A stretch of 27,693 nt of DNA, from IMG/VR virus record IMGVR_UViG_3300030104_005724, positions 1-27,693 of that record; one strand, written 5' to 3'. The notes under the pieces are model-generated. The model was not told the DNA's origin. It did no database searches and saw only the letters and a program-made list of their open reading frames with translations. The DNA is from a virus. A program made the position numbers and the translations under genes. Positions 2,506-27,489 of this stretch are shown here, in pieces. How positions within the stretch are numbered: position 1 is the first letter of the stretch; each line of letters begins with the position of its first letter.

Positions 2506-4427
2506 TATACGACCTCCAGTTTGCTGATAATGCTGCTTACAAGTGCTTCTTCGTCTTCCATGCCCAATAGTTTGTCGCCTAAACCTTCAAGCTCATCGGC
2601 TTTCAAGAAAGATTCAATCGGACCAAACTTTTCTACAAGGATCTCGACGACTCTTTCGTCGTAAGTTCCCTGCGCCACAGCAACTTTAAGTAGTGTAGGA
2701 CTTCCGCCCAGTCGATCAAACCTACCCTTCCACTGTACAAAGTCTCCGGGTTTCCAAGGAAGCATCGCGAAAATGGCGAGGTCCGCAGTCTGCATGCCGT
2801 CGACACCTGTCCCAACGCTTTGACCTGTTGCAATTAAGCAACAAGGACCGCTGGCTTCCCTGAAGGCATCGATCATCCTATCCCGCTCAGACTCGGACAC
2901 ACCCCCGTGTGCCATCCAAACTGGAACCTCGCCTAAGGCTTCATCTCCGCGTTTAAGGGCTCGACGCAGATCATGCTCCCACAGTTCTGTTTCGCGCCTC
3001 CGGGCAGTAAAGATAACAACCTTACCCCCACCTTTTAAACCTTCAATAGCCTCACTCACAACATATTTTCGTTTACGACTACAAGCTTCAGCTAAACGAG
3101 CCTCGACGACACGCTCTCTCGCTGTAGGATTCGAGCGTGCTTCACGCATAAATCCTCTCATTGCTTGACCAAATGTCTCGTCGTCACTCCACCTTTCGGC
3201 ACGGTTCAATTCTGTAGAACTCAGGTATACGACTTGAACTCGGGTATCAGGTAACGCCGCATGAGATTCTGAATATGGAACTTCGTGGACTAGAAATGAG
3301 CACCGCGCCTTTAGTTCCAGTAGATTGCTCGCACCAGTGTCATCAAGTCCCCCGTATTGGCCGGGTCGAGCAGCACAGTAGCGGTGAGCAAAGTTCGAAT
3401 AGCTGTGCGAAAACCCACCTGGAGCTAAGAGATCAAGCTGAGACCACAAACGTCGAGGACGACCGTCATCCAGCGGTGTGGCTGTCAGGCCAATGCGCAG
3501 ATTAAGACTTTTGAGTCGACTTAAATCCATCGCAGCCACGGCACGATTCTCTCTATCTACAGCCGAATTGGCCCGGTTGCTGGCCGCAGTTTTGCGACGC
3601 TCAAAAGAAATGCTACCGTCGGATTCATGGATGGCGGTCCAACGTTTGCGGCTGCCATGTGTATGAATCTCATCAAGGATCAAAACGCTGGGCTTTAAGT
3701 CTCGCGCAATTGATATGTTATCCGCAAGGGACTCGGAGCCAATGACAACAAAAGGACGTTGAAGTGTGTTCCGACATTCTTCCATGTAGTCATGGAATGT
3801 TTGATCTTTTTTCCTTTGCTCAGATACAGGGCGAACTCGAAATGGTTTGATGTGCGTGTACTCTTGAATCTGGCTCCACCAAACGTGACGGGCTTTAGCA
3901 GGACAAACAACCAGTATCGGCCCTGTACGTCCCAAAGAAGCCATAATAGCGCCCAAAGTTTTACCTGAACCGCACGCCCACACGTTCATTGACCAAGGTC
4001 GAGTACGTGCCCATTCGACTCCCATAAACTGATATGGGGTCGCAATATCGAGAACATGCTCTCTTAACTCACCCATACGAATTAAACGGCGGGCCGTTCG
4101 AGTACCGCTAACCTTCAGTCGATTTAGCTCTTCGGGATCGTTTGACCAACCATTGATGCCCGTAATGTCCGTAGCCGAGTAGCTGTAGTCCAACACGTTT
4201 CGAGCGAGTAATCCCTCGACTAACCATGCGGCGTGCAGCGGTGCGTATATTTCGCATCGAACAATATCTTCTCGTTGTTCATCAGAGGCATTCTTTAGTC
4301 TATACCTACGACCATATGACCTGCGACCGTAAACGAGTGACCCCGGAACCAGACCTTCGATACTTTCCATGAGGTTAAGATCTACGGGGATGTTCACGTA
4401 ATAGGTGAGATGTGGTTGTCCGTGCAT
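2505..4427 (-). CDS. SNF2-like superfamily 2 DNA helicase/translocase
   Basis: A 640-residue protein with both RecA-like lobes of an SF2 enzyme. Residues 151-157 are Walker A (ACGSGKT), 252-255 are DEIH (motif II), 315-318 are TATP (motif III), and residues 565-573 contain motif VI (QWKGRFDRL). VVCPAKA near 175 is motif Ia-like. The first ~130 residues form an N-terminal domain I do not recognise. SNF2-like phage helicases act in replication, recombination or fork remodelling. The ATG at 4427 has no ribosome binding site but lies 6 bases after the -10 of a good promoter, so the message is probably leaderless. It heads the minus-strand DNA-processing operon and is divergent from the XRE gene. 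A later start at Met20 is possible but has no ribosome binding site either. Direct substrate evidence is absent. Confidence 0.88.
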   Translation of the reverse strand: MHGQPHLTYYVNIPVDLNLMESIEGLVPGSLVYGRRSYGRRYRLKNASDEQREDIVRCEIYAPLHAAWLVEGLLARNVLDYSYSATDITGINGWSNDPEELNRLKVSGTRTARRLIRMGELREHVLDIATPYQFMGVEWARTRPWSMNVWACGSGKTLGAIMASLGRTGPILVVCPAKARHVWWSQIQEYTHIKPFRVRPVSEQRKKDQTFHDYMEECRNTLQRPFVVIGSESLADNISIARDLKPSVLILDEIHTHGSRKRWTAIHESDGSISFERRKTAASNRANSAVDRENRAVAAMDLSRLKSLNLRIGLTATPLDDGRPRRLWSQLDLLAPGGFSHSYSNFAHRYCAARPGQYGGLDDTGASNLLELKARCSFLVHEVPYSESHAALPDTRVQVVYLSSTELNRAERWSDDETFGQAMRGFMREARSNPTARERVVEARLAEACSRKRKYVVSEAIEGLKGGGKVVIFTARRRETELWEHDLRRALKRGDEALGEVPVWMAHGGVSESERDRMIDAFREASGPCCLIATGQSVGTGVDGMQTADLAIFAMLPWKPGDFVQWKGRFDRLGGSPTLLKVAVAQGTYDERVVEILVEKFGPIESFLKADELEGLGDKLLGMEDEEALVSSIISKLEVV

Positions 4428-11805: not shown

Positions 11806-13764
11806 CTATCGAGAAAAGACTTGTTGATGAAGAATGTGATCGGCGTCATCTGCAGGCGAACCGCCTCCGCCCCCACCAATAACTGAGTGATCAGCCGAAA
11901 CATCCATGAACTGAAGAAGATACCAGTTAGTGCCGTCAAAGCACCACTGAGTAACATCACCGTTTGCGGTCACAATGTCAGTGCTGCCACCCTTGAGGTT
12001 GGTGCCTGTGACATCGTATGTAATCGCCGCCGTTGAAATAACCGTGATGACTTGACCGGCAATGCCGTCGTCAAACATCGTGATTGTTTCGGCCGATGCG
12101 TGGTGCTTCCACAAGTTTCCAGTGGCTACAGACGGGGTAGCATCGCCGTCAGAGAAGGTTCCAAACGTTCCTGCTACATTGGCAGCAAAAGCGTCTACAA
12201 CGGAAACCTGAGCGTTTTCATTGATTGAAATCGCAGTCGTTGTTCCAGCAGCATTTCCGACACCAATGACCAAATCGTCTGCGGTGTCATCCAGTGCAAC
12301 GTGGAAATCTTGTGCGTTGCCGTCGAACAACAACATTGTGTCTTCTGCACCGGCATCACCGATCGTAATCTTAGGTGTCGAGCCTGCAACAGTGACTGAA
12401 CCGCCATTTACAAGAATGCTGCCCGCAAACTCAGACTGTTGAGTGTCGTCAATAGTCAATGCGGGTTGCAGTCCAGAATCATTGTTTGTTGAGAAGACAA
12501 GTTTGCCTTTCTCATCATCGGATGAACCAAGGTGAGCACATTCAATCTGGCCCAATGCGTTGTTTCCGTGATCCTCAAAAATTATCCGTGTCTCGCATCC
12601 ACCGTCACTGTTTTCAACCGTTGTGTTCTTAAGTGTCACATATGCGTTTGCGCCTGAAACTTGGAGCATTGTACCCGGAGCAGCGTCACCGATTCCGACA
12701 CTACCATCCGTATGGATACGCATCTGCTCAGAAGCAGCATCTGTACCACTGACCTTAGTAGAGAAAGTCATTACCGATGTGCCGGTACCGTCTCCACCAC
12801 CTGCTTTCAGAAGAAGGTCACCACCGTTCTGGTTGGCACTACCAGTGGGGGCAGACCCCGCAGATACTGTAAGGTCACGACCATCTGTACCAGAACCTGT
12901 ATTGGCTACATTGAGGGTTGCGTCTTGTCCGTTTCCGTAAGATACATCGCCACCCGTAACAGTAAGGTCTGTACCTACAGTAACCGCAGCATTAAACGAT
13001 GCCGCACCAGCATCCGCCATAGAAAGCGTTAAGGCTGTGATGTCGCTACTACTATCAGTGCCTTTGAAAAGAATATTAGCATCGCCCTCTTGAGCATCAA
13101 TCGTAATGTTACCCGCAGTGGTTGCGATAGTAACTGCGGCGTCACCTGCGCTGATGTCATCGGCAGCACTTGATCCAGTAGCGACGGCGTCCCAAACAGC
13201 CTTAGCGCCGTCCCACTTCAAGAACTGACCAGAGCTTGGAGAGTCTTGACCAATCTTTGTGACGTGACCCGACCCATCGAAAGTAATTGCCGCCGTTCCG
13301 CCTGCCTCTTTCAGCGATCCACCATCATCGATAATAATGTCACCAGTGACCTGCAAATCACCAGCAGCCGTTACCTTTTGAGCTTCGCTAATAGTCAACG
13401 CCGTCTGCAAGCCAGAGTCGTTGTTCGTTTTGATGATTAGTTGACCCTTCTCATCATCAGAACTTCCAACGTGACTGACTTCGATTTGACCAAGAGCGTT
13501 GTTGCCATGGTCTTCAAAGATGACTTTGGACTCACAGCCGCCAGCAGTATTTTCTGAAGTATCGTTCTTCAGTGTGATGTAAGGAGCGTTACTTTCAACT
13601 TGAAGTTGGGTGCCGGGAGCCGTAGTGCCCATACCAACGCGGTTGTTGGTCTCATCAATAGACAGTGTTCCACTATCGATCTCGAGATCATCCGCCGTAA
13701 TAGTTGTCGCAGTAATCGTACCGCTAACGACATTCCGACTCCAAATACTACCAGAACCCGCCAT
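11806..13764 (-). CDS. Tail-fibre-like protein with internal duplication
   Basis: A 652-residue Gly/Ala/Thr/Asp-rich protein typical of phage fibres. Its repeated VGMGTTAPGTQLQV-type entry motif is followed by ITLKN, IIFEDHGNNALGQIE and NNDSGLQ elements. One copy spans about residues 45-140 and a second about 357-455. Between and after them are repetitive beta-helix-like strands (TAAGDLQVTGDI, GDITIDAQEGDA-like). The C-terminus ends with a Gly-rich linker (IGGGGGGSP) and HILHQQVFSR. The start at 13764 has a perfect GGAGGT site and overlaps the preceding stop (TAATG); a TTG 12 bases upstream is unnecessary. Fibres recognise the host surface. Trimerisation is expected from the family, not seen directly. 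No chaperone or endosialidase-type domain is apparent at the end. Confidence 0.83.
   Translation of the reverse strand: MAGSGSIWSRNVVSGTITATTITADDLEIDSGTLSIDETNNRVGMGTTAPGTQLQVESNAPYITLKNDTSENTAGGCESKVIFEDHGNNALGQIEVSHVGSSDDEKGQLIIKTNNDSGLQTALTISEAQKVTAAGDLQVTGDIIIDDGGSLKEAGGTAAITFDGSGHVTKIGQDSPSSGQFLKWDGAKAVWDAVATGSSAADDISAGDAAVTIATTAGNITIDAQEGDANILFKGTDSSSDITALTLSMADAGAASFNAAVTVGTDLTVTGGDVSYGNGQDATLNVANTGSGTDGRDLTVSAGSAPTGSANQNGGDLLLKAGGGDGTGTSVMTFSTKVSGTDAASEQMRIHTDGSVGIGDAAPGTMLQVSGANAYVTLKNTTVENSDGGCETRIIFEDHGNNALGQIECAHLGSSDDEKGKLVFSTNNDSGLQPALTIDDTQQSEFAGSILVNGGSVTVAGSTPKITIGDAGAEDTMLLFDGNAQDFHVALDDTADDLVIGVGNAAGTTTAISINENAQVSVVDAFAANVAGTFGTFSDGDATPSVATGNLWKHHASAETITMFDDGIAGQVITVISTAAITYDVTGTNLKGGSTDIVTANGDVTQWCFDGTNWYLLQFMDVSADHSVIGGGGGGSPADDADHILHQQVFSR
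12400..12696 (-). repeat. Second copy of the ~97-residue fibre repeat
   Basis: Encodes residues ~357-455 of the fibre. It matches the first copy at 13336-13632 element by element: APGTMLQV, VTLKN, IIFEDHGNNALGQIE, SSDDEKG, NNDSGLQ and ALTI. The shared FEDHGNNALGQIE block is identical in protein, although synonymous bases differ. Confidence 0.78.
13336..13632 (-). repeat. First copy of the ~97-residue fibre repeat
   Basis: Encodes residues ~45-143 of the fibre, with APGTQLQV, ITLKN, VIFEDHGNNALGQIE, SSDDEKG, NNDSGLQ and ALTI in the same order as the copy at 12400-12696. The two copies lie 312 residues apart with different sequence between them. Confidence 0.78.
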
Positions 13765-14234
13765 TATGACCTCCAAGAAACGCGAATATACCCAACTGCA
13801 TTACCCCCACCGGTCTGCTTGGCAATCACATAAAGTTTGCCCCTTGTTGCGCCTGTAGTCGCAGCAGATGTTGTGCCTCCGTCAAAGTGGTAATCAACCA
13901 AACTCGAAAACGCGACACCACCTTTTGTGGACGTTCCCGCACCATTGGTAATTGTTTCCGTCGCCGGGTTTGTAATTGGAATATCACCCGCAGAATCGCG
14001 AGCCAAATACATCGTCACCGATGTAGCACTGTCTCTAGCGGTAAACTCAAACTCAATTGCCTGAACCTCACAGTCATCAGGAAACGACGAAGAGTTAACT
14101 GAATTTGTAGCATCAACCGTGACTGGAAATGCTTGATAGGAAGTAGTTAGCGCAGTCGGCGCACCTGACGTGCCGCCAGACGACTTAAACGCGCAAGCCG
14201 AATATCCAAAGCTAGTAAACGATCTGATGCCCAT
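13764..14234 (-). CDS. 156-residue beta-rich probable virion protein
   Basis: It begins MGIRSFTSFGYSACAFKSSGG and continues with strands rich in Thr and Val, including EVQAIEFEFTARD, VTMYLARDSAGDIPITNP and a C-terminal GNAVGYIRVSWRS. The composition is like that of the fibre-adjacent proteins. The start at 14234 is set by GGAG 6 bases upstream; an upstream in-frame codon at 14264 has no comparable site. The stop overlaps the fibre ATG (TAATG). It is the first gene after the giant gene, separated from it by an unusually wide gap for this genome. A role as fibre adaptor or virion surface protein is inferred from position only. Confidence 0.74.
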   Translation of the reverse strand: MGIRSFTSFGYSACAFKSSGGTSGAPTALTTSYQAFPVTVDATNSVNSSSFPDDCEVQAIEFEFTARDSATSVTMYLARDSAGDIPITNPATETITNGAGTSTKGGVAFSSLVDYHFDGGTTSAATTGATRGKLYVIAKQTGGGNAVGYIRVSWRS

Positions 14235-14313
14235 TATCAACTCCCGGTGCAGCAGTGGCACCATTGTAACACTAAAAAACTATAAGACATTAACTGAGAC
14301 CAAACAGAAAAAA
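14235..14313 (-). promoter_or_regulatory. 79-base intergenic gap with weak promoter-like A/T-rich sequence
   Basis: This is the widest minus-strand gap inside the structural region. Read on the minus strand it is T/A-rich, with TATAGT (5 of 6 matches to a -10) and, further on, TACAAT, but neither has a good TTGACA-like element at the proper spacing. No hairpin with a T-run is obvious. It may hold a promoter for the fibre/lysis genes, possibly for a phage-specific polymerase. Evidence is thin. Confidence 0.25.
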
Positions 14314-17300
14314 TCATCTCTTCTTTTTCGCTCGCTCAAGAGTCTTGCCCGAAGTACCTGCTTCAGCCCTGAATACTTCAGACGCGGTAGTGCGTTCCCG
14401 AAGAATCTCACGCTGGTCTAAACCACTGATAACTCGCGCCCATTTTTGTAATTCACCGCGAGTACCTGCCGCTTTTTCGGCTGAGCTTTTTTCCGCGCGC
14501 AAAAGAATATCGTTTAATTCACCCAACGGACTATTCGCGAAGAGCAACTGAGCAACACCCGGCATCATGTAATACCGTTTGCCGGGTTTTACTGCGACGC
14601 CTGGTTGCTTGCGCGTAAAATCTTCCGGCTCGAAACCTTCTTCTACCGCAATTTCTTGCTCAATTTGAATCTCAAAAGTGTCATCGTTTTCGTCTAACTC
14701 AAGCAAATCAATCATGTGGTAGTCAAAAAAGTGCACTAACGAAGGCGCGATTTTCTTCGGAATTGTAGCGCCACCCGTACCTAAGCTTGCCTGAACATCG
14801 GATAAAACTGGTGCGCGGGCAGGATTAAGCAACGCATTAAGAGGTGTTAACGGCGTAATTGCGTCTGACCCATCATCTTCATCCGTAAACCAGTTGTCGC
14901 CCATGTCCTCAATCTTTTGCAGAACTAAAAGCTTTGTCGCGAATAAGTAAGAGAAGTGATTGAATGCCGCTGCGTAAGTTGTTTCTGGCATAAAGAACGC
15001 CATGTAAGGTGCTTCAGGCCGATTTTCTCTGTACAAATCGTTCCACAGCTTTGTGCTTTGCTGGAACTCTTCTGGTGGTTCATACGTTACAGGCTCTTCT
15101 TTGTAAGGCTCAGGATAATACGGAAGAGCCACAGAGATTCGGTCCCTGAAGTAGGTTGGCAGACCTGACCGATCAGGACGAGGCATGTAGTATGCCGCCA
15201 ACGTGCGTCGATCCAAACCAACTGTTTCGCCATCCTCACCCTTTAGTGACGCCGCAATGTCCTTAAATCCATCGTAGTAAAGTGACCCCTGCATGACCTT
15301 ACCACCACTAATACCGATCATTGAGTGCGAAACAAACAATCGTATTTCTTCTTGAATCGGTGCAGGAATCTTTCCGTTCTCACCATACTGATCCAAAAGT
15401 TGTTTCTTAAACGCAAAATACGTGTGACGTAACTCTGGTGGCAGTGAATCTGTTGAAATACCGTATTCGTCAACTGAGGCGCTGTAAGTCAGGTAGCTCA
15501 AAAGCTCACTACCCTTGTCATATGCGCGACGCATAACTCCTAAACGATACGCACCTTCAGGGCTGAAGATTGTATCGAATATTTGGCGGTTAGCGTTTTT
15601 CTGGAAAGCCCAAAACGGAAAGAAGATATTCAACAAAAAGTTTCGATCTGCTTTCGACATGCTACCGGCGTAGTCGTACAAGGCTCGAATTGAAATCTTT
15701 GCCGCAGTTCGCGGATCGATGCCAGCCTCCATCAATGTGACCATACAACCAAGCCGCTCACGCTCTGCCCACGCCTCGGCGATATCTTCAGAAGCACCCT
15801 TAATATCACCCAAAATATCTTTACCCATTTGGGTCAATCGACCATTCTTTGCTTGGGTCTGAAGAAAAAGGTTTCCAACATTCTGAATCTTTGTACCCAG
15901 TTGGGTCGTATCGAATGAAGCGAAAAGACCTGCCTCCAAAGCAATTTGCCTAAGTTCATTGTTTTTGTATGGCTTACCGGCAATCATTACAATGCCACCA
16001 GCGCCCTCAAGAATTGGGTTTACGTTGACGTTCCATTTCGAGCCACGGGTAAGTTTTCCGGCCCACTGAGCAGCAGCATCGCCACCGTTCTGAAGTACAC
16101 GTCGAAACGCTTCAACTGAATCACCCTTACCTGTACTTCTCGCGGCAAACACAGCAGCTTGACCAACTGGGTTAGATAAGACGTTTTGAGTAAACAATCT
16201 GGTGGATGAAATAAGAGCAGTTCTAAACCCAGCCTTAGTCGCCACTTGATTGAAATGGTCAAATGTGTTCATCCAAAAATAACGAGACTTCAGAACAAAG
16301 TGACCACGCACCATGCGTGTTTTTAAGTAACGATAAAATAAAGCAAAGCTAAGTGCGGCAGAACTATTTGTTCCCGACCCACCCATAATTTTTTCCGGGA
16401 CCGCTGCGATGGAATTCAGTGCCTCCATCGTGTTCATTCCCTCTAACTTTAGCAACGCCGGATCTTGCGCCTGCGCAAGAGCAGTATCCAGTCGCAGTCT
16501 TGCTGCTTTCGGAACGTAAAGTTTGAGTCCGTCAAGGTTGTAGCCCTCTACCATATTCGGGTTGTACCCTAAAGAATCAAAGGCATTCCGAACACGTACG
16601 ACATCATCAGGATTAATAGCCTCACCAACGATGTACTGCCTCATTGATTTAGCTAAGTCTTCGTCGGCAGCAATCCCCAACTTAACCCAGTTTTTCTTCG
16701 CAGCATCAGCCATACCATGGCCCGCGATCAAAATCGCTATTCGGTTCGCAACTGTCGGATCATCCGCAAAAAACTTATTAATATCTTGGTAAATACCATT
16801 AAACGCATTCTGCGATGTCGAACGAGGGCTTAAGCCTTCCGTAGTTACAGACCAAAGTTTTTGTGTCTCTGGCAACGCAGGATCACCGCGTACAGTCATG
16901 TTGCTGTAATACATAAGTATTTCAAGCAACCCACCAGGGTCCAAACCTTCTGCAGGTTGAGTAAAGAATTTTGGATCAATGCGCTGACCCTTGTAGCCCG
17001 CAGCTTTAAACGCCTCACTAACAAACCGAGATGCCTTGGGTCCGTCAATGATTTCGTGGAAAATCTCAGAAATTTGACCAAGAGTTTTAGCGCCCTCTTC
17101 ACTTTTCACGTACTCAGAAGCAACTTTTGACGTCGATCCTACGTGGCGAATGCGAATCATAAATTGCTGGATCAAGCTCATGTCTGCAGCAGGAATCGAA
17201 CTAAAGTAGCGAGTTAAATTTGCTGAGACTGATGCCATAGAGTCATGGCCAGCACTCATCGCAGAACGCCCACCCTTCGAGAACTGCACATTCGGTACGC

Positions 17301-20300
17301 CCGTGACAAGCCGGGTCAGGTTTACGATGTCTTTTTCTGCGACAAGCGTTACCGCGTCACCAATAGCCTGCTGTACTCGACGCGCTCCAGCCATTACAGC
17401 GTCACGAATAGGTGGCGGCAAAAAACGCATATCATCAAACGCGTCACCGCCAAGGTACATAAACCTTGCTGCCCGTTGAATCGGATTCTGAACTACCCAC
17501 TGGTCAACCAACTCAGACGGGGTCAATTCTTCGATAGCCTCTTCTGGGCCCCGAATACCAAGCTTGCGTGCCCCTTGAAGCTCAAGTTGTTTGGCCGTCT
17601 CAAGGCTCATCTGGTAGTTAGCTAATTCGTCCAGAGTAAACTCACGTTTACCGGTAGCGGCGTTAGCAGTCCAACCCTTAATCGTTACAGGACCAGGCAG
17701 TCGAATGACGGCCTCATCAACACGCCCCGCATTGTAAGCCTTAAGTGCGTTGCTAAATTGATCGCGGAGATCTGCTTTAGAGATCGGCGTCCCCATACGG
17801 AAACTTTCGCGAGCAATCTCTTCGAGAATGTCAACTTCAGTACCGCCCAGATCAGGCTTAATCAACGCATCTTTAGCGATACCAATAATGTTAGGCAGCC
17901 CCACACGCTTGGATGGCACACGCAACAAGCCGTCCAAAGATCGCCTCAAGCTTTCGTCCATGTCTAAGGAAGCGCCATCGACTTCAGCACCTCTCATTGC
18001 TGCATACTTGTCTGCTGTCCACTCTCGAACTTTACTGAGTGGTCCCGCAAGCTCGGGTTTGTCGGCTCTTCCAGACGCCACATAAGCAGCAAATGCTCGC
18101 GCAAACTCCTCTTCCGCACGCTCAATTTCGGTTGCGTCAGCAGCAGTAAACCTTGCACCTTGATACCCGACATTAATGCCCTTGGTTTCAAGCCACGAAA
18201 CCAATGTCTTCATTCCACTTTCGTCTAAGTCTCGACGCGAAATTTGCCCCAGTGCTCGAATAAAATCGTCTACTGATGCGGTCTCACTCATGGCCCGAAT
18301 AATTGCTTGGCCGTTCTCAAGGAACTCAACCATAAGAGGCTCAGATCCGTCTTCAAGTCGACGCATGAAAGCGGCTGATTCATCCATCTCAACTGAAAAC
18401 ATACTGCGACGATTTCTCAATCCATGTTGTCGAGCCAAGTCGTCTAAATCAATTTTCGCCAAGCTTACTGGGTTGAGAAAAAAAGCATCGGCATATTCAC
18501 CAGAAGCAGTTCTTCTCGGTATTTTTTGGAACGGGATACCCATGTCCCCAAGTGATTTGTACACACGTAACGAATCAATACTTGGACCAATGTCACTTAC
18601 AAAACCAACACCAGAATCTTGCGCGTATTTAAGGGCCCTCAAATAAAGGTCGACACCAAAACCGCGATTACGAAATCTAGCTTCAATTTCGGCACTCACG
18701 ATGCGCAAAACAGGGTTTTGCGTTTGTCGGGTAAATGCAATGCCTGGAACAGGTGCCCGCCTAATATCTGCTGCCGCCGAAACGGTCGGATCCAATCCAA
18801 CTGATCCGATTCTGCCAGGTAGTTGTGGTGCGTCCGTACCTCGGGTAGCAAATCGAGTGCCAAGTACATTACCAAGATCGTCAACTACCGCAGTAATCCC
18901 ATTACCCTCAAATCCCTGCAGCTTTGGAGACGTAATAAATACTTCGTTTCGAGCAAAAAGAGCGTCTCCCGTAAACGCATCAATCTGTGACGAAGTTGGA
19001 GGGCCTTCACTGGGAATATTTCGAACAACAGGCTCAGCGTTCGCTGCGGGTCGAGTGTCAAACTTAACCGCTCTCTGGATTACGCGCTCACTCGCAACCA
19101 AAGCCTGAGCCAGCGCATTAGTTTCATTTTCTTTTCGGATACCAAATATCGACGCAACTGTACGAGTAAACTTATTCCAGAGGCTTACTTTTGGTGTGAC
19201 TTCAATCAAGCTCAGTAACCGCTGAAACTTAGGATCCATCAACGTAAACGCTAAGAACTCACTTGGGTTTCCGATATAACTGTCAAAATTTTCTGCGTAA
19301 AGTTTCACGCTTCGCAAAGAAGAAACAGCGTTTTTATCCATCGAAACAGTTTCGATTAGACGGGCAATACCTACGCGGGTTTCTGCAATTAAATCTTGCA
19401 TCGCAAGGACCGACTTATCCGACGGGTTTTTCAGAATAAATTGATGGGTCGCGGCATGAATAAACTCATGAATTAAAACCTCTTCAGTCAGACCTGTTGC
19501 CGGAACAACATCACCAAATCGTGCAGGTTTTACGGCTCCCGTTACCTGAACTCCATGGTCAACGGTCTCGTACAACCCAGAAGCTACCCCTCTAGGACCT
19601 ACAGGACCCGGAACGATCTCAAAACTTGGTGGATCGCGCCGAATAGTCGGTAAAATTCTTTGGGCCAGTAAGCGAGTAGAATCGAGCTTGGCATGATTTG
19701 CTAAAAACTCGACAACCTCATCACCAGACTTCATACCAATCAAATGGTTGTACAAGACTTCAGGCTTCAGCCCCGATGTACTATCTACCCTAAACTGATG
19801 AACCATTGGCTGAGCTTGAGCAGTTTGCGCATCAAGACTCTTCAACGCCTTAAATTCATCTGCTACATCAGGAAGGGGCTTTGCTTTTGGAACACCTGCA
19901 AGTGACCCCCGAAATGCGCCACGAGAGACGTCTGTACCTAACCTCGCGTTCTCCAGTGCTTTACGTATGCCTGGCGGTAGTTTCTTCGCTACTTTTGGGT
20001 CACTGGTAATAACGGACAATAAATCTGGGAGAGGCTCAGGCTCTACCGTTTCAGGTGCTTTTGGTGTGGGGGCATCCGGTGCAGGGGCGTCAGGCGTTGG
20101 TGCCTTTTTCGGTGCAACTTCTTCAACCTCATCTGCGACACGCTTAACTCCAGCAAAACGCTCACGATAATAGTCTTGGACAGTGCGGCCAGCTTTTGAA
20201 TCCGCGAACTTTTTCGCCTCTTGGTCCATAAGCCGTACAATTTTCAGTGCGCCATCACCCTCAAGAGCCGGATAAATATCGACAATTTGGTCCCGAAAAT

Positions 20301-22866
20301 CCAATGCCTCTGGAGATAAACGATCGCGCCCAATTGCTTGGTAGCGATCCGTCAGCTTTACCAACAATGGTTCAGCCGCAACCTTTGCTTGCTCCGCTAC
20401 ACGTTCACGAACAAATGCTGCTGAAGCCGCACGAGATTCAAAGTTCGCTCGAACAGCAGACACCGCTCTTGACGTCGCATTTCGGGCAGACTCAAGCGAA
20501 ATCTTCTGAGTCTCTTTCGCCGCTTTCGCCGCAGCCGAAACAGTTTTAGGGAACTTAGCATCCAATGTCTTTAAAAATTTGACCCCCTGCTCTGGATCCA
20601 CAAACTCAATTGCTCGGGCAAGACGAGAAACTTCTTCGGTCCATTCAGACGGGTTGTCACGCAATAATCGTGTAGCTTTAGGACTTTCCAAGAACCCGAC
20701 AAAATCAAACAAGGACTGACGCTGCGCAACATTTAGACCCTCGTCCGACAAGTTCATGTCGAACTTACCGAGTAGAGCTAAAGCGTCATCAGCGAAAGGT
20801 TTACCCGCAAATTCACGAATTCTGGCTGTAAACGCTTTATCAATGTCACCTGATTTCAAAAGCTCAACGGACTCAATCAAATCGTCTAAGACACCCTCGG
20901 CCCGCATAAGCTCAGGGAATCCTGTTAATTGATCAACAGACTCACCACGAAGCATTACACGGCGGGCACCCATATGAATGTTCTGTGCCGTCTCACCAAA
21001 CGTTCCCGGCACATTTGCTGCCAGTCGTTTACCTTCCGTAAATGTTGTTTCTTTTACCCGCTTACCAATTCGACGAGCAATATCCGCATCTAAGCGATCA
21101 ACTTCGCGGGCAATGTCGACATTTGTTTTTCGTGTCTCACTAAACGCATCATCAGCTTTATTGGCAAAAGCTTTAGCTTCTTCCAAAATATCCAATGCTT
21201 CATCGTAATCGCCGCGAGCAACAGCCTTCTCGGCAGCCTCTAATACGTCTTCTGTTTTAGCGAGATTTGTCGCGCCATCCCCAAGAGACTCGACAAGATT
21301 CGGTGCCATACGGCGGAAGCCAGCAGTTGCCGCAGCAACCTCAGCCACACGCTTAGTGCTACGAGCAACACCAGCAGCACCCATAAATAAATCAGGGGTC
21401 AAAATTGCAGCGACAAGACCCGCAGAGCCCATTGCAACTGACGCAAGACCCCCAGACTCAGCAGCCTCAGACGATAGCGCGGCTTTTAGGAAGTCTCTGC
21501 GGTTTTTGATACCATCGAGAGAGCCCTCACGAATCGCCGTAAGAAGACTCTCATCCTTTGAGTCATCAAGAACACGCTCGGCAGCACCAGCAATCCCCGC
21601 CTGAAAGGTGTCTGCCATTTCAAAGATGTGCCATGTCGGAGAAGTCAGACGATAAACAGGAATCCCTTTCGGGTCAATACCGACAACCTCAATACGGACA
21701 TTAGCGGCGTTCTCCATTGCCTGGGTAATCCACCACTTGTCTTTTGACTCAGGAGCGTTTCTTACATTACCCGGATCAATCTGGTCATACTGAATAAAAC
21801 CAGGAAGATAGTACTTATTTACAGTGCGTAGAAGAGCAACCTCATACAAAGAGTCCCGCTCAGCCTTGGGCTTAAGCTGTTCATACTCTTTTGAACCTAC
21901 GCCGACACCCTCACGCTCCGCCATCTTACCCAGTTTATGGGCCATAATTTCGCTGACTAAGGCTTGGAACTTACGCTCACCCAGAGTGTTCCGAATCATC
22001 GCACCCGTAGTAGGTGGGCCAAGAGCATCAATGTGCCTCTTGTAGATCTCCGCCTGCTCTTTGTCGGTTGCTATTTCTGGGTTGATTAACTGATTTGCAG
22101 CGATCTCCATCTGCGCATACTCAGCCTGCCCCGGCTTCGCAATGGCGTCTTCCGCCTCACCGCTGTCAGAGTCACCCGAAAATATACGCGACTTAAGTCT
22201 TGGATCTTTTCCCGAAAGCAGCTTTATAAGCGTCTCTTTCCTCTCTTTCTCGCTCATTTTCTTTTCGCGTGATGCAACGCGCTTAATACCCTTGACGCGA
22301 ATTTTTTCGCCTCGGGCCATCACTTCGCGTTGTTTCGGCGACAGCGTCCAGATTTGTTCCTGAGTCTTAAACTCATCTACAACTTTCTTCGCGGGACGAC
22401 CCTTATCGCCGATCTCGGAAAATAAATTAGCCAACGGGACGCTTTGAGCTTGAGCGGCTTTCTTGAACTCGTCAAGAGTAATGCCCATGTCTTCGGCATG
22501 CAGTTGCATAACTTCATCAGGGTCAAAAGCAGGCTCACCTTTCGCTACTTTACTCTCTACACCTTTTGGGTCTAACTGACGCTCAGACTCACCACGACTT
22601 GCAATCAACAAGCCTAATCGTGGAATCTTAAGGTCCAACTTTAAGTCATCAAACTTCCCCGGTTCGATATCGATCGATTCGAACTTACCCATTTCAAGTG
22701 ATTCAGGGGCCTCAGTTTTTTCCGGCTCCGCAGTCTTTACCGGCTTCTCTTCAGCTTTTGGTTTTTTAGTTGGAGGGAAATCATCCAAGTCGATGTTCAT
22801 GTCGCCTGGATCACGAGCTTTCAATCGGGCCAAACGATCTCTATTTTCTTTCTGCGTGTCAGCCAC
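14314..22866 (-). CDS. Giant 2850-residue polyvalent/ejection-type virion protein with zincin-like and GNAT-like parts
   Basis: The largest gene of the window. The start is GTG at 22866, with GGAG 6 bases upstream. Visible parts: a charged Lys/Pro/Glu N-terminus (1-60); a hydrophobic Ala/Gly segment (about 470-505); coiled-coil-like Ala/Glu-rich stretches (about 510-900); a Pro/Ala linker (about 910-945); a zincin-like site H1133-E-F-I-H1137 with a possible third ligand Glu1203 in NPSEFLAF; a GNAT-like segment with acetyl-CoA-loop-like RNRGFG at 1399-1404 and a following IDSLRVYKSLGDMG helix; and a C-terminal region with FFPFWAF (2415-2421). Large multi-domain phage proteins of this kind (polyvalent proteins) can be packed in the virion and enter the cell with DNA. 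The upstream genes also look like internal virion proteins. I see no convincing N4-type virion RNA polymerase motifs. Domain calls rest on short motifs. Confidence 0.8.
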   Translation of the reverse strand: MADTQKENRDRLARLKARDPGDMNIDLDDFPPTKKPKAEEKPVKTAEPEKTEAPESLEMGKFESIDIEPGKFDDLKLDLKIPRLGLLIASRGESERQLDPKGVESKVAKGEPAFDPDEVMQLHAEDMGITLDEFKKAAQAQSVPLANLFSEIGDKGRPAKKVVDEFKTQEQIWTLSPKQREVMARGEKIRVKGIKRVASREKKMSEKERKETLIKLLSGKDPRLKSRIFSGDSDSGEAEDAIAKPGQAEYAQMEIAANQLINPEIATDKEQAEIYKRHIDALGPPTTGAMIRNTLGERKFQALVSEIMAHKLGKMAEREGVGVGSKEYEQLKPKAERDSLYEVALLRTVNKYYLPGFIQYDQIDPGNVRNAPESKDKWWITQAMENAANVRIEVVGIDPKGIPVYRLTSPTWHIFEMADTFQAGIAGAAERVLDDSKDESLLTAIREGSLDGIKNRRDFLKAALSSEAAESGGLASVAMGSAGLVAAILTPDLFMGAAGVARSTKRVAEVAAATAGFRRMAPNLVESLGDGATNLAKTEDVLEAAEKAVARGDYDEALDILEEAKAFANKADDAFSETRKTNVDIAREVDRLDADIARRIGKRVKETTFTEGKRLAANVPGTFGETAQNIHMGARRVMLRGESVDQLTGFPELMRAEGVLDDLIESVELLKSGDIDKAFTARIREFAGKPFADDALALLGKFDMNLSDEGLNVAQRQSLFDFVGFLESPKATRLLRDNPSEWTEEVSRLARAIEFVDPEQGVKFLKTLDAKFPKTVSAAAKAAKETQKISLESARNATSRAVSAVRANFESRAASAAFVRERVAEQAKVAAEPLLVKLTDRYQAIGRDRLSPEALDFRDQIVDIYPALEGDGALKIVRLMDQEAKKFADSKAGRTVQDYYRERFAGVKRVADEVEEVAPKKAPTPDAPAPDAPTPKAPETVEPEPLPDLLSVITSDPKVAKKLPPGIRKALENARLGTDVSRGAFRGSLAGVPKAKPLPDVADEFKALKSLDAQTAQAQPMVHQFRVDSTSGLKPEVLYNHLIGMKSGDEVVEFLANHAKLDSTRLLAQRILPTIRRDPPSFEIVPGPVGPRGVASGLYETVDHGVQVTGAVKPARFGDVVPATGLTEEVLIHEFIHAATHQFILKNPSDKSVLAMQDLIAETRVGIARLIETVSMDKNAVSSLRSVKLYAENFDSYIGNPSEFLAFTLMDPKFQRLLSLIEVTPKVSLWNKFTRTVASIFGIRKENETNALAQALVASERVIQRAVKFDTRPAANAEPVVRNIPSEGPPTSSQIDAFTGDALFARNEVFITSPKLQGFEGNGITAVVDDLGNVLGTRFATRGTDAPQLPGRIGSVGLDPTVSAAADIRRAPVPGIAFTRQTQNPVLRIVSAEIEARFRNRGFGVDLYLRALKYAQDSGVGFVSDIGPSIDSLRVYKSLGDMGIPFQKIPRRTASGEYADAFFLNPVSLAKIDLDDLARQHGLRNRRSMFSVEMDESAAFMRRLEDGSEPLMVEFLENGQAIIRAMSETASVDDFIRALGQISRRDLDESGMKTLVSWLETKGINVGYQGARFTAADATEIERAEEEFARAFAAYVASGRADKPELAGPLSKVREWTADKYAAMRGAEVDGASLDMDESLRRSLDGLLRVPSKRVGLPNIIGIAKDALIKPDLGGTEVDILEEIARESFRMGTPISKADLRDQFSNALKAYNAGRVDEAVIRLPGPVTIKGWTANAATGKREFTLDELANYQMSLETAKQLELQGARKLGIRGPEEAIEELTPSELVDQWVVQNPIQRAARFMYLGGDAFDDMRFLPPPIRDAVMAGARRVQQAIGDAVTLVAEKDIVNLTRLVTGVPNVQFSKGGRSAMSAGHDSMASVSANLTRYFSSIPAADMSLIQQFMIRIRHVGSTSKVASEYVKSEEGAKTLGQISEIFHEIIDGPKASRFVSEAFKAAGYKGQRIDPKFFTQPAEGLDPGGLLEILMYYSNMTVRGDPALPETQKLWSVTTEGLSPRSTSQNAFNGIYQDINKFFADDPTVANRIAILIAGHGMADAAKKNWVKLGIAADEDLAKSMRQYIVGEAINPDDVVRVRNAFDSLGYNPNMVEGYNLDGLKLYVPKAARLRLDTALAQAQDPALLKLEGMNTMEALNSIAAVPEKIMGGSGTNSSAALSFALFYRYLKTRMVRGHFVLKSRYFWMNTFDHFNQVATKAGFRTALISSTRLFTQNVLSNPVGQAAVFAARSTGKGDSVEAFRRVLQNGGDAAAQWAGKLTRGSKWNVNVNPILEGAGGIVMIAGKPYKNNELRQIALEAGLFASFDTTQLGTKIQNVGNLFLQTQAKNGRLTQMGKDILGDIKGASEDIAEAWAERERLGCMVTLMEAGIDPRTAAKISIRALYDYAGSMSKADRNFLLNIFFPFWAFQKNANRQIFDTIFSPEGAYRLGVMRRAYDKGSELLSYLTYSASVDEYGISTDSLPPELRHTYFAFKKQLLDQYGENGKIPAPIQEEIRLFVSHSMIGISGGKVMQGSLYYDGFKDIAASLKGEDGETVGLDRRTLAAYYMPRPDRSGLPTYFRDRISVALPYYPEPYKEEPVTYEPPEEFQQSTKLWNDLYRENRPEAPYMAFFMPETTYAAAFNHFSYLFATKLLVLQKIEDMGDNWFTDEDDGSDAITPLTPLNALLNPARAPVLSDVQASLGTGGATIPKKIAPSLVHFFDYHMIDLLELDENDDTFEIQIEQEIAVEEGFEPEDFTRKQPGVAVKPGKRYYMMPGVAQLLFANSPLGELNDILLRAEKSSAEKAAGTRGELQKWARVISGLDQREILRERTTASEVFRAEAGTSGKTLERAKKKR

Positions 22867-22883: not shown

Positions 22884-24212
22884 TTATTCTTCTGGAGGAA
22901 CAATACCAGAACCGGCATACATCCTATCTGATTGTTCTGGATAAGTAACACTCATTACCCGACGCAGTTGAAGTTCCTCTGCCCTAAGTTGTTCAATCGA
23001 ATCTTCGAGAGCAGCTATTTGAGCATAATCATACTTACTTTTTCTCTTCGCAGGATCTTTCAGTTTGTTTATCTGATCTTGGGCACCAAGAATTTGCCTC
23101 GATCGAATAGCAATTTCTGACCGTACTTTTGTAGGATCAACTGTCTGGCCTCTCGGGGCAGTCGGCGCAAACATCCTTCCGCCTTGGCGTGGTGCATCTG
23201 CAAATGGTTTTCGTTGAATTAACTGACTCTCAATAATCCCCTCAGCAGGCTTACCCGTCGCAGGATCGAGATACATACTCGGGTCAAAAGATGTCATTGG
23301 CGGAGCAGCGCCTTCAATTTCAGGATCTGAAGCATACGCTAACCAACGCATTGGTCCGCCAGTAGCTACATCCATTGCGAGAGGAACAGTTCGATCTATA
23401 GCAGTTTCCGCCGCACGATAAAGTCTGCCACCACCAAGAGTCTCTAACCCCACAGATGACTCAATCGGTGTCGACGGTCGACCCATAAGACCGACGGCAC
23501 GCTTCAACTCTTCTCGTTTTCGGCTTGCTGCGTAACGGCGAGGTTCGCCACCCTCAAGCTCAAGCACAGCCTCACGACGACGAGGACCCATTGTCGCGTA
23601 TTCATCGACACCCGGTGCCATACGTTCAGCGGTATAAACTCGACTTTCCGCCTCTCTCAGTTTTTCGTCCGCGCGAGTGCGCCCTCGTGTTGGATAAGTA
23701 GGACCACTTAGATCACCTCGACGCTTTCTTGCCGGACCAATGGGGCCTTCACCCATATCAATCCCCGAAGTGTCTCCAGGAGTACCGCGTCTCGCCGCCT
23801 CTAATGCCTTGACTACGGCAATAAGTTCTTTACGTTTCGCTGTGAGTCGTTCCTGAGTTTCTTCTTTCGACAACTCATCAGCACGACGTTCTTCAATTGT
23901 CGCACGCATTTTTACTGGGGCTCGACCCTTTAGTCTCGACTCCAACTGCCGAACTTCCGTTTCAAGCTCTGAGGCTTGGGCCTCAAGATCATTCGTTTCC
24001 GACACCGGCTCAGGCGGAGAATCTTCCACAACTGGATCAACCACAGGTGGCGCACCCTTACCTGCTCGGGCAACATACGTTGTATCTGCAGGAGGCTTAC
24101 CCGCAGGAGGCTTACCCGCAGGAGGCTTACCCACAGGAGGCTTACCCGCAGTAGGCTTACCCGCAGGAGGCGACGGAGCTTTTTTAGCGCCGGTAATAAC
24201 AAACTTCGGCAT
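22884..24212 (-). CDS. 442-residue probable internal virion protein with PPAGK repeats
   Basis: The N-terminus (about 13-42) is a low-complexity Pro-Ala-Gly-Lys repeat in five-residue steps. Next comes an acidic Pro-rich spacer, then a predicted coiled coil (from about residue 73, ASELETEVRQLESRLKG) and Arg/Glu-rich helices. The C-terminal part is mixed, ends IVPPEE, and contains a second coiled region (QIAALEDSIEQLRAEELQLRR). The start at 24212 has a GGGGGTGA site upstream. It lies 17 bases before the giant gene. It has no enzymatic motif or membrane segment. Position and composition suggest a component ejected or packed with its large neighbours. No family is recognised. Confidence 0.75.
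   Translation of the reverse strand: MPKFVITGAKKAPSPPAGKPTAGKPPVGKPPAGKPPAGKPPADTTYVARAGKGAPPVVDPVVEDSPPEPVSETNDLEAQASELETEVRQLESRLKGRAPVKMRATIEERRADELSKEETQERLTAKRKELIAVVKALEAARRGTPGDTSGIDMGEGPIGPARKRRGDLSGPTYPTRGRTRADEKLREAESRVYTAERMAPGVDEYATMGPRRREAVLELEGGEPRRYAASRKREELKRAVGLMGRPSTPIESSVGLETLGGGRLYRAAETAIDRTVPLAMDVATGGPMRWLAYASDPEIEGAAPPMTSFDPSMYLDPATGKPAEGIIESQLIQRKPFADAPRQGGRMFAPTAPRGQTVDPTKVRSEIAIRSRQILGAQDQINKLKDPAKRKSKYDYAQIAALEDSIEQLRAEELQLRRVMSVTYPEQSDRMYAGSGIVPPEE
24091..24165 (-). repeat. 15-bp tandem repeat, five copies, coding for PPAGK
   Basis: Five contiguous 15-base units (GGAGGCTTACCCGCA on the plus strand) start at 24091, 24106, 24121, 24136 and 24151. The third unit has CCACA for CCGCA and the fifth begins GTAGG. 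They encode the PPAGK/PPVGK/PTAGK repeats. The near-identical units are prone to slipped-strand length change that keeps the frame. Confidence 0.9.
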
Positions 24213-24223
24213 AAGTCACCCCC

Positions 24224-24523
24224 TTAAGCCTTATAAGCCGACGCAATATTTTGATACGCAATCTGCATTGCCGTCGGTTGTTCTGTACCACCTGACGAAG
24301 CCGCAGCAGCCTCGGCCTCTTCAGTCTTCCGCCTTTTCTGACCCTTCGCGACGGCTTGGACGTAAGGTGCAATCTTTTTCAGCTTTGCCCTACGCCTTGC
24401 TTTATCCGCCAACGATGGGCCGGTGTCAGCCGTCTTAACTAACTCTGACTCATCACCCGAAGTCACGTCAGTCGGACCATCACCTTTAAACTGCATCTTA
24501 TCTGGATCAAATTCTTCCGCCAT
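24224..24523 (-). CDS. 99-residue charged hypothetical protein
   Basis: It begins MAEEFDPDKMQFKGDGPTDV, followed by a basic middle (DKARRRAKLKKIAPYVQ...KGQKRRKTEE), an Ala-rich stretch and a helical end (TAMQIAYQNIASAYKA). It is largely disordered in appearance. The start is set at ATG 24523, overlapping the preceding TGA as TGATG; an adjacent GTG at 24526 is also possible. AAAGGA lies upstream. It sits between two large probable virion proteins, so a small assembly or DNA-packing role is possible, but no function can be assigned. Confidence 0.7.
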   Translation of the reverse strand: MAEEFDPDKMQFKGDGPTDVTSGDESELVKTADTGPSLADKARRRAKLKKIAPYVQAVAKGQKRRKTEEAEAAAASSGGTEQPTAMQIAYQNIASAYKA

Positions 24524-27489
24524 CACTTCATTCCTTTCGACTTACCTTGAGTTGTTTCTGCCTCATCGTCACTGGTGGAGTCACGATCCGCTTCAGGGTT
24601 TGCTTGAGGACCCTTCTCGCCAGGAACTTCTGACGAATCCAGAGCAGCGTCGTCTACTTTATCGGGCTCAGGGGGCTTCTTTTTCTTTGCTTTCTTCTTT
24701 TTCTTCAACAAGCCCAAAACCTTGGACATAGCGCCCTTCAATGATGGAGCGGCTACGTCACGAACATCAGTAGGCAGATCACCCGAAGTTGACTCCTCGG
24801 ATGGAATCGTCGTTGCGGGAGCAAGGGCCCTCGGGTCCACTTTCATCGACATTGCACCTGGGTCAGTAAATGAGTCCTGACTCATCGGAACAGATTTAAG
24901 TGACTTCGGAGTTTTATCCCCAACACCGGGACGAGGCTTGCGGACTTTCATCGACATCTCACCCGCATCAGTAAACGAGTCTTGCGAAGTAGATTTACTT
25001 GGGTCCGGTTTTACGGAAGCAGCATCTACTTCAGGAGTAGGCTCGTCAACTTCAGACTCGTCAACTTCAGGCTCGTCAACTTCAGGATCATCCATATCCT
25101 CAGTAAAAATCTCGGGGTCAACCTTACTTTGGTCACGAGGCATAGCAGGTGCGTATTTCGGTTTCGGTAACTTAAACCCAATATCCGAATCGTGCAGGTT
25201 CCCATAAAGTAAGAAATATTGATCACCAAAGTTATCGTTATAAAACTTGGCTAATTTTTCTCTTTGTTCCGGGGTTTTACTCTTGTCGACTAGACTCTCA
25301 ATCATTTCAGGTAAAATAGACGTGTCGATAAAAGGGGATCCAACAACAGCGGGGGCACTAAGGTTAGGATCTACGCCATCTTTTGGCGTCGGCGGTTGTT
25401 CGATCAACTGCTCAGTCTGAGCCTGATCGAGATCTGTAGTGTCCCGAAGCTCATCTGTGTCTGCGATGCCACGGGTATCGTCTGTAGGATCAAGCACCCA
25501 GATGCCTGCCATGTCAGAACCAGGACCGGTCATCGGAGTTGCTGGTACTTCAGGCTCTCGCGTAAACCCAAGACCCTCAGGAGTCAGAGCGTTGATTGTC
25601 GCACCTTCAATTGCTTCAGATTTGTCAGGATCAGTCCGTGGTGTGTATAACTCACCCCTAAATTCTCCTGCGATTAACGCCGAAAGATCTTCTTGAGAGA
25701 GCAAACTGACAACACCATCAACCTCTTTAGCCAAGACATCAAGGCCGCCGTCAGCAGGTAGTTTATCTAATAAAACACCCCGCTGTGTAGCATCGGTAAC
25801 TTCAGAAATACCCTCAGCCGAAACAGCATAAATCTTTGCTGTCGCTGGATCGACGATGTACGAAGCATCATCTATATCAGCAGAGAAAATACGATTGCGT
25901 CGCGCTTGTGACTGCGCCGCCTCAAACTCATCTATGCGAACCGCTCGATTCGTGTTTGGATCAACGATGTAATCCGTACCAACCATGGCGAGATCTTCAA
26001 TGTCCTGCTCGCCAGCAAGAAATCGAGATGTCGCATCAAGGCGCGCATACTTGTTTTTTTCTTGTCGATACTTCCGTTTTGCCCGACGATCGGCTCGACT
26101 CGGCTTATACGCTGGACGCTCAAGAATCTCTGCTTGGCTTGCATCCTCGGGAGTAATCAACCGAGCGCCACCCTCAGTTGCGATCCGAATGGAACCCATC
26201 GGATCTGCCGCATGACGCTTCATTCGTCGACCAGTGACGCTGGTGCCGTCTTTAAGCTCAACCCGCCAGACCTCACCAGACCAAACATTCTTAAGCCCAA
26301 ATTCACCTGGACGACGCATTGACTGATTTTTCCACGCCAACAAGGCGGCAACATCATCACCACCCCGACGGTAGGTCGAAACATCAATGTTCCCTTCTTC
26401 GTCAAAACCAACTGAACCAAGACGATCAAACCCGTGGTCAGCAGCCCAGGCGCGGAAACCAGAGTTACCAATACCCTTAGCTAAACCTTCCCGAATCTCA
26501 TCTTGATCGTCCACAGAAAGCTTTGACTTAGCAAATTCCACTGCGTGCTTCGCATAACGATGAGTCAGCTTACGTTCATGAGCCGCCTGAATGATCGAAT
26601 CAGCGGCCTCGGCACTCATCATTCCGGTGCTTTTCTCAAAGCTAGCTTGATTACCCTCAACCATTTCCATCGCAGCTTCAAGGGCTTGCTCACCAGCCTC
26701 CTTTTTGCCTGCGTTAATTAGTGCTATCGCCTGATTAATTTGCCTCTCGGCAAGATCACCCTGCGTCTGAAGACGATCGTCAATGACACGCTCTTGTCGA
26801 AGAGCACCATTATACTCCTCCAACATATCAAGCATGTTGACTACATCAGGTGAACTCATCGCCCGGCGATGTTTGGAACTTAAAAGGGCCCTTGTACCCT
26901 TAATATCGATAAAGCCGTCGTCACCTATAAGGATAATTTTATTCGGTTTTTGAGAGTCGTTTAACTCGTTAACCATCCCATTTACTGTGACGACAAAACC
27001 AGGGTCATTGACCGTGAGCAGAGGCCCTTTTGTTCCATCTGCTCGTACACCTGTACTATATAATGCGTTACCAAGCGCCGTAATCCCCCCAACGGGATCT
27101 CGACCTCCTTGCCGTATCTTACCCCTTAACGCAAGAATCATTTTCCTATCAGCTACACGAGTTTTCGCGTAATACGCCTTCTGTGCCCCGATATTTGCTA
27201 CATGGATATCCTTAAGGATTTTTGCCCGCGCAATACCCTGCTTTGATGCAAGCTCATTGTACTTAAACTGAAGGTTCGACATGTCAGTTCGATACTCAAT
27301 GACTGACTTCACCTGCTTCAACTGAGTGGTTGAGATACCCTCTTCAGTCTCAAGCATAATCTTAATCGCGTCTAGGTACTGCTCAAACATCTCGGCGTCG
27401 TTAACGCTTTCATCGTCAGAAACAGCACCGCCCCGACTTGCACGAAGAGCCCGAATAACTTGATTTGATACCTTTTCCTGAAACGACAT
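24523..27489 (-). CDS. 988-residue probable internal virion protein
   Basis: The N-terminal third is helical and coiled-coil-like (about 30-330). It is followed by a mixed central region with two related YIVDP elements (DYIVDPNTNRAV and SYIVDPATAKIY, about 500-560). The C-terminal part is low complexity: an acidic EVDE repeat (about 799-824), two copies of SQDSFTD[AP]GxMSMKV (about 835 and 870), and a lysine run (about 927-941) near the end. The start at 27489 overlaps the previous stop (TAATG), with AGGAGT about 9 bases upstream. It has no membrane segment or enzymatic motif. Its size, charge and position beside the giant protein suit an internal or ejected virion protein. The homologous family is not recognised. 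Confidence 0.78.
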   Translation of the reverse strand: MSFQEKVSNQVIRALRASRGGAVSDDESVNDAEMFEQYLDAIKIMLETEEGISTTQLKQVKSVIEYRTDMSNLQFKYNELASKQGIARAKILKDIHVANIGAQKAYYAKTRVADRKMILALRGKIRQGGRDPVGGITALGNALYSTGVRADGTKGPLLTVNDPGFVVTVNGMVNELNDSQKPNKIILIGDDGFIDIKGTRALLSSKHRRAMSSPDVVNMLDMLEEYNGALRQERVIDDRLQTQGDLAERQINQAIALINAGKKEAGEQALEAAMEMVEGNQASFEKSTGMMSAEAADSIIQAAHERKLTHRYAKHAVEFAKSKLSVDDQDEIREGLAKGIGNSGFRAWAADHGFDRLGSVGFDEEGNIDVSTYRRGGDDVAALLAWKNQSMRRPGEFGLKNVWSGEVWRVELKDGTSVTGRRMKRHAADPMGSIRIATEGGARLITPEDASQAEILERPAYKPSRADRRAKRKYRQEKNKYARLDATSRFLAGEQDIEDLAMVGTDYIVDPNTNRAVRIDEFEAAQSQARRNRIFSADIDDASYIVDPATAKIYAVSAEGISEVTDATQRGVLLDKLPADGGLDVLAKEVDGVVSLLSQEDLSALIAGEFRGELYTPRTDPDKSEAIEGATINALTPEGLGFTREPEVPATPMTGPGSDMAGIWVLDPTDDTRGIADTDELRDTTDLDQAQTEQLIEQPPTPKDGVDPNLSAPAVVGSPFIDTSILPEMIESLVDKSKTPEQREKLAKFYNDNFGDQYFLLYGNLHDSDIGFKLPKPKYAPAMPRDQSKVDPEIFTEDMDDPEVDEPEVDESEVDEPTPEVDAASVKPDPSKSTSQDSFTDAGEMSMKVRKPRPGVGDKTPKSLKSVPMSQDSFTDPGAMSMKVDPRALAPATTIPSEESTSGDLPTDVRDVAAPSLKGAMSKVLGLLKKKKKAKKKKPPEPDKVDDAALDSSEVPGEKGPQANPEADRDSTSDDEAETTQGKSKGMK

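Follow-up and report, generated by a model that had tools for sequence, protein, structure and literature searches.

We read the giant protein encoded in the window (the whole stretch of DNA analysed, 27,693 bases, the first part of a 39,960-base IMG/VR virus record) as the largest internal virion, or ejection, protein of a podovirus-like phage and, at the same time, as a polyvalent protein with a chassis-carried enzyme cassette, and give this reading a probability of about 0.72. The protein, P0001, probably belongs to the contents of the particle and is probably driven into the host cell. Packaging and ejection are the best explanation because the gene sits where those of T7 gp16 and phiKMV gp37 sit, and they are also favoured because a zincin domain is common to P0001 and gp37 and muralytic domains occur in relatives. 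The gene and the parts of its product are as follows.

14314..22866, minus strand: gene of the giant protein P0001, 2850 aa, with a GTG start and a GGAG ribosome site; its chassis is found on 37 other contigs
21934..22866, minus strand: N-terminal part, aa 1-311, where relatives carry Phage_lysozyme2 or M23
20947..21933, minus strand: conserved N-terminal module, aa 312-640, whose own profile matches most relatives (E 1e-6 to 1e-153)
21397..21453, minus strand: conserved hydrophobic Gly/Ala-rich segment, aa 472-490, Kyte-Doolittle peak 1.65, at the same place in most relatives
20023..20112, minus strand: Pro/Ala/Glu-rich linker before the zincin, about aa 919-948, read from the translation
19069..19749, minus strand: cargo domain 1, predicted zincin of gluzincin type, aa 1040-1266, with HEFIH at 1133-1137 and E1203, from homologues and fold prediction
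18442..18762, minus strand: cargo domain 2, predicted short GNAT, aa 1369-1475, with motif A RNRGFG at 1399-1404, from profiles and fold
17767..18354, minus strand: junction domain, aa 1505-1700, second zincin now without HExxH, with RALGQ at aa 1537-1541
14317..17766, minus strand: constant C-terminal chassis, aa 1701-2850, mostly helical as predicted, with a PFWAFQKN signature

Inspection of the translation and of the upstream bases shows that the open reading frame is real, with GGAG a few bases 5' of the start codon. It occupies 31% of the window, close to the one third given in an earlier sequence-only reading, and the motifs singled out there are found in place, namely HEFIH, NPSEFLAF (1200-1207), RNRGFG and FFPFWAF (2415-2421). 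From the alignments, these motifs are not chance occurrences, because the H/E/H/E residues of the zincin, the glycine and helix residues of GNAT motif A, and PFWAFQKN are conserved. P0001 on its own gave no Pfam or PHROGs match above cut-off. Three scans of IMG/VR gathered the relatives that encode the same chassis; the INPHARED phage set returned matches for the zincin region only, and two scans of bacterial and archaeal genomes revealed no relative and no prophage form.

Profiles derived from the family were used to delimit its constant and variable parts. The constant ones are the N-terminal module (P0001 312-640) and a C-terminal part (1505-2850), which measures 1,244-1,372 residues in all proteins but two, one of these being truncated. 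Between them lies a variable cargo of about 400 to 2,400 residues, in which GNAT, zincin (one or two copies, in swapped order in L052), ART-PolyVal (ADP-ribosyltransferase), C5 DNA methylase and PBECR5 (RNase-type) domains are found across the family; Pfam places ART-PolyVal in six scanned segments; the methylase belongs to L054, and one relative has PBECR5. The effector-type enzymes that could be placed lie between the hydrophobic segment and the chassis, and the cell-wall enzymes lie N-terminal to that segment: Phage_lysozyme2 in one clade of relatives, inserted near P0001 aa 217-231 (E 4e-12), and M23 in L052 and L053, near residues 176-181. Neither is present in P0001, in which no muralytic domain was detected. 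The family has a fixed-chassis, variable-cargo design, which had no place in the sequence-only reading. One relative of 4227 aa (L015, 9554-22234) combines ART-PolyVal with an extra HELWH at 2740, and its junction zincin, at 3011, is intact. In the lysozyme clade (L008, L012, L016 and L017), the zincin site is occupied by helical segments with Rho_N matches (E down to 2e-15, in L008), possibly a nucleic-acid-binding part.

The first cargo domain is, by sequence and model, a gluzincin-type metallopeptidase domain with intact catalytic residues. Residues H1133, E1134, H1137 and E1203 (HExxH...E) are invariant in an alignment of 18 sequences, comprising 15 cargo zincins of the family, phiKMV gp37, the virion RNA polymerase of an N4-like Klebsiella phage and a Vibrio phage protein. 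Residues 1040-1266 match gp37 (tblastn E 2e-8, hhalign E 1e-12), the Klebsiella polymerase (hhalign E 1e-7) and the Vibrio protein (hhalign E 1e-11), the last of which carries a genuine LPD38 (E 4e-44). The AlphaFold2 model, with pLDDT mostly 60-90, shows a helix, three strands, the HExxH helix, a Glu-bearing helix and further helices, and this succession has been described for the metallopeptidases (MPTases) of polyvalent proteins (PMC5512222). Among viral models (BFVD), the top Foldseek match is a phiKMV-like internal core protein (E 6e-8). Conservation, homologues and fold prediction bear out the metallopeptidase that had been proposed at about residues 1090-1210 from HEFIH and NPSEFLAF. 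In Klebsiella phage P184, the virion RNA polymerase (L019, 1302-11939) holds the same zincin type near its residue 2238, with HExxH and the later Glu intact. The sequence of the cargo zincin is compatible with cutting of host proteins, with cutting of the giant itself and with a role in assembly, all of them discussed for MPTases (PMC5512222).

The second cargo domain, a GNAT found in 20 of the 33 scored family members, is predicted by AlphaFold2 to run strand-strand-helix-strand-helix-strand-strand, and RNRGFG, which fits (Q/R)xxGx(G/A), opens a helix preceded by a strand. The first glycine of motif A and the helix residues after it are invariant across A3. Pfam GNAT models are matched by 8 of 15 members (best E 4e-6), P0001 not being among them; in the Foldseek comparison with the PDB, the top 50 matches listed are GNAT enzymes, complexes containing them or GNAT-fold relatives, the best with E 0.011 and probability 1.0. 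The acetyltransferase suspected at about residues 1330-1450 from RNRGFG and the following helix is therefore supported as a GNAT domain at 1369-1475 by conservation, the family's Pfam matches and fold comparison. Catalysis is not certain, because the domain is short and the usual N-terminal helices appear to be missing.

A further zincin, not contained in the sequence-only reading, can be recognized at the junction of cargo and chassis (residues 1505-1700). A scan of the family for HExxH located it in 11 relatives, just where the constant C-terminal part begins, and in the aligned junction domains it is followed by AEExFAxAFExY; these domains give weak Pfam matches to zincin families, and those of relatives a weak match to LPD1 (E 0.005). 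In P0001, RALGQ replaces HExxH and the later Glu of AFE is an Ala. The junction zincin is dead in 24 of 35 proteins, and the AFE glutamate is kept in 11 of 11 intact copies versus 4 of 24 dead ones, counts that are not independent, the sequences being related. On a tree of the remaining chassis, HExxH status requires at least four changes. Identity between P0001 and L004 amounts to 70% in the junction domain, 58% in the cargo zincin and 48% in the GNAT. The domain is thus retained and better conserved than the cargo zincin or the GNAT, which suggests that it has a structural role. Cargo and junction zincins display no homology by hhalign and, as far as this test reaches, they appear to represent different zincin lineages and not a duplication. 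A simple rule by which a dead junction accompanies a cargo zincin fails: in L041 and L054 both zincins are intact, and the lysozyme clade, whose junction is dead, lacks HExxH altogether.

The zincins can also be read, with lower probability, as serving assembly only, that is, processing the giant before or during packaging or acting as encapsidation folds, with no delivery of effectors. According to PMC5512222, DdrB of phage P1 is cut before it is packaged, and the N4 virion RNA polymerase needs its MPTase region for encapsidation; the retention of the junction domain through about four losses of HExxH likewise points to a structural role for the junction zincin. The cargo zincin, however, keeps all its catalytic residues in the 18 sequences, yet many relatives that share the chassis lack it, so that it is not needed for packaging in general. 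We consider a role restricted to assembly rather unlikely.

The chassis itself matches no known family, and no Pfam model fits it. The AlphaFold2 model of residues 1700-2850 is mostly helical (mean pLDDT 74.5, pTM 0.73), with no PDB match by sequence and no significant one by fold in Foldseek. Trimmed alignments compared by hhalign gave no sequence match to T7 gp16 (E 0.2), phiKMV gp37 or the LPD38 protein, and the T7 core protein appeared in Foldseek at E 1.6, probability 0.04; the LPD38 expected from FFPFWAF found no match in a profile search whose control was equally silent. Few stretches of the family are as conserved as PFWAFQKN. The membrane-contacting part of the sequence-only reading is partly supported. 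Its hydrophobic segment exists, as the conserved residues 472-490; the FFPFWAF region has no Kyte-Doolittle peak above 1.3, its fold matches nothing solved, and by hydropathy it is not a membrane segment.

The genes described around the giant are read leftwards, with the terminase gene in the opposite direction. From the right end they encode a major head protein (phrog_9953, E 2e-23), a scaffold-like protein, proteins of 633, 183, 806, 857, 311, 289, 988, 100 and 442 aa, the giant, and proteins of 166 and 656 aa; beyond these lie an endolysin-like gene and, after it, genes for a helicase, an exonuclease and an AAA protein. The giant is thus encoded among virion and terminase genes. The 806-aa protein has a weak match to 'internal virion protein'. 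In relatives, the 806-857-311-289-988 and 166 neighbours keep their positions around the giant, and the cassette 806-857-311-289-988-442-giant-166-tail fibre is conserved. The nearest neighbours are the following.

11806..13776, minus strand: 656-aa protein, weakly assigned as tail-fibre-like (weak Phage_depo_C match, below cut-off), which follows the giant as in phiKMV and T7
13764..14264, minus strand: 166-aa protein, encoded next after the giant in most of the relatives examined
22884..24212, minus strand: 442-aa Pro-rich protein, directly upstream of the giant
24523..27489, minus strand: 988-aa protein, a conserved upstream neighbour, gp15-like by position only

The place of the giant equals that of T7 gp16 and phiKMV gp37, being the last large internal-protein gene before the tail fibre, given the weak assignment of the latter. 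It is this fixed location among structural genes, together with the muralytic domains of relatives and the zincin homologue in a phiKMV protein annotated as structural, that renders improbable the idea that the giant stays in the cell as an early or late protein and never enters the particle. The packaging and the delivery at DNA entry considered in the sequence-only reading receive indirect support, from gene position and from the zincin homologue in gp37.

For an ejected protein, we infer packaging, ejection, catalysis and targets along the following lines. The constant N-terminal module and the C-terminal chassis of ~1,350 residues, whose first domain would be the inactivated zincin, would hold the giant inside the particle and take it, along with the DNA, across the envelope. 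The exchangeable enzyme cassette between the constant parts would consist here of an intact gluzincin-type metallopeptidase joined by a flexible linker to a short GNAT acyltransferase. Once in the host, the GNAT would most likely acylate a host (or incoming) protein, and the metallopeptidase might cut a host protein or free the cargo from the chassis.

Comparison with known systems places P0001 close to the polyvalent proteins (Iyer et al. 2017, PMC5512222), a class with at least two different effector-type domains per polypeptide: it is a giant with a zincin and a GNAT, encoded among structural genes, and its relatives bear ART, PBECR, methylase and lysozyme domains. It differs from them in its conserved chassis, unmatched in Pfam, in the cargo set between two constant parts, in the extra junction zincin of its family, dead in the clade of P0001, and in the pairing of GNAT with zincin or lysozyme and not with ART. 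With phiKMV gp37, listed as a gp16-like ejection protein (PMC8954989), it shares the zincin domain (28% identity, all four catalytic residues) and the place before the tail fibre, whereas gp37 has 1337 aa, no GNAT seen and a chassis without detectable homology. Like T7 gp16, it is the biggest of the internal proteins and the last one encoded ahead of the tail fibre, and its relatives have a muralytic domain on the N-terminal side, as gp16 does, but no sequence or fold match to gp16 is detectable and no muralytic domain was found in P0001 itself. We regard it as highly improbable that the giant is an N4-like virion RNA polymerase, diverged and with a zincin tail, in spite of the giant size and zincin type shared with the Klebsiella phage P184 polymerase and of several relatives on contigs of 65-76 kb, the size range of N4-like phages, as P0001 has no PHROGs match, the alignment to that polymerase covers the zincin and not the chassis, the rest being unrelated with no polymerase part detected, and the middle of the giant varies freely among relatives; the RNA_pol model PF00940 was found nowhere, in a search whose control was also silent and which does not bear on the question.

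Zincin, GNAT, ART and lysozyme domains were already known from polyvalent proteins (PMC5512222), and the giant adds a new branch to this class of multi-enzyme proteins that phages inject. Within the reach of the tools, three things are new: the chassis family, the pairing of zincin and GNAT on the chassis, and the junction zincin with its repeated inactivation. More tentatively, and at somewhat less than even odds, the family might constitute a previously undescribed phage protein-delivery chassis, a constant C-terminal carrier of ~1,350 residues for unrelated enzyme cassettes, with a junction zincin originally meant for release and inactivated in several lineages, including that of P0001. If so, one phage chassis would deliver interchangeable enzymes into bacteria, and comparison of relatives would show what a phage brings in just as infection begins. 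The zincin with intact catalytic residues shared with gp37 means that a laboratory phage can answer whether an ejection protein is also a peptidase, and the repeated death of the junction zincin separates the structural from the catalytic role of these domains.

Some observations concern the neighbouring genes. For the 656-aa protein, identity in the best segment is 66-77% in L010, L013, L015, L043 and L050, against only about 28-33% between P0001 and the giants or chassis of these relatives, and this disparity suggests that the tail-fibre gene has been exchanged between lineages. The 442-aa protein opens with a GKPPAGKPP repeat, and the start of the giant lies 17 bases beyond its gene. In the 988-aa protein a motif recurs, as DSFTDAGEMSMKV and DSFTDPGAMSMKV, and a stretch rich in Lys lies close to the C-terminal end.
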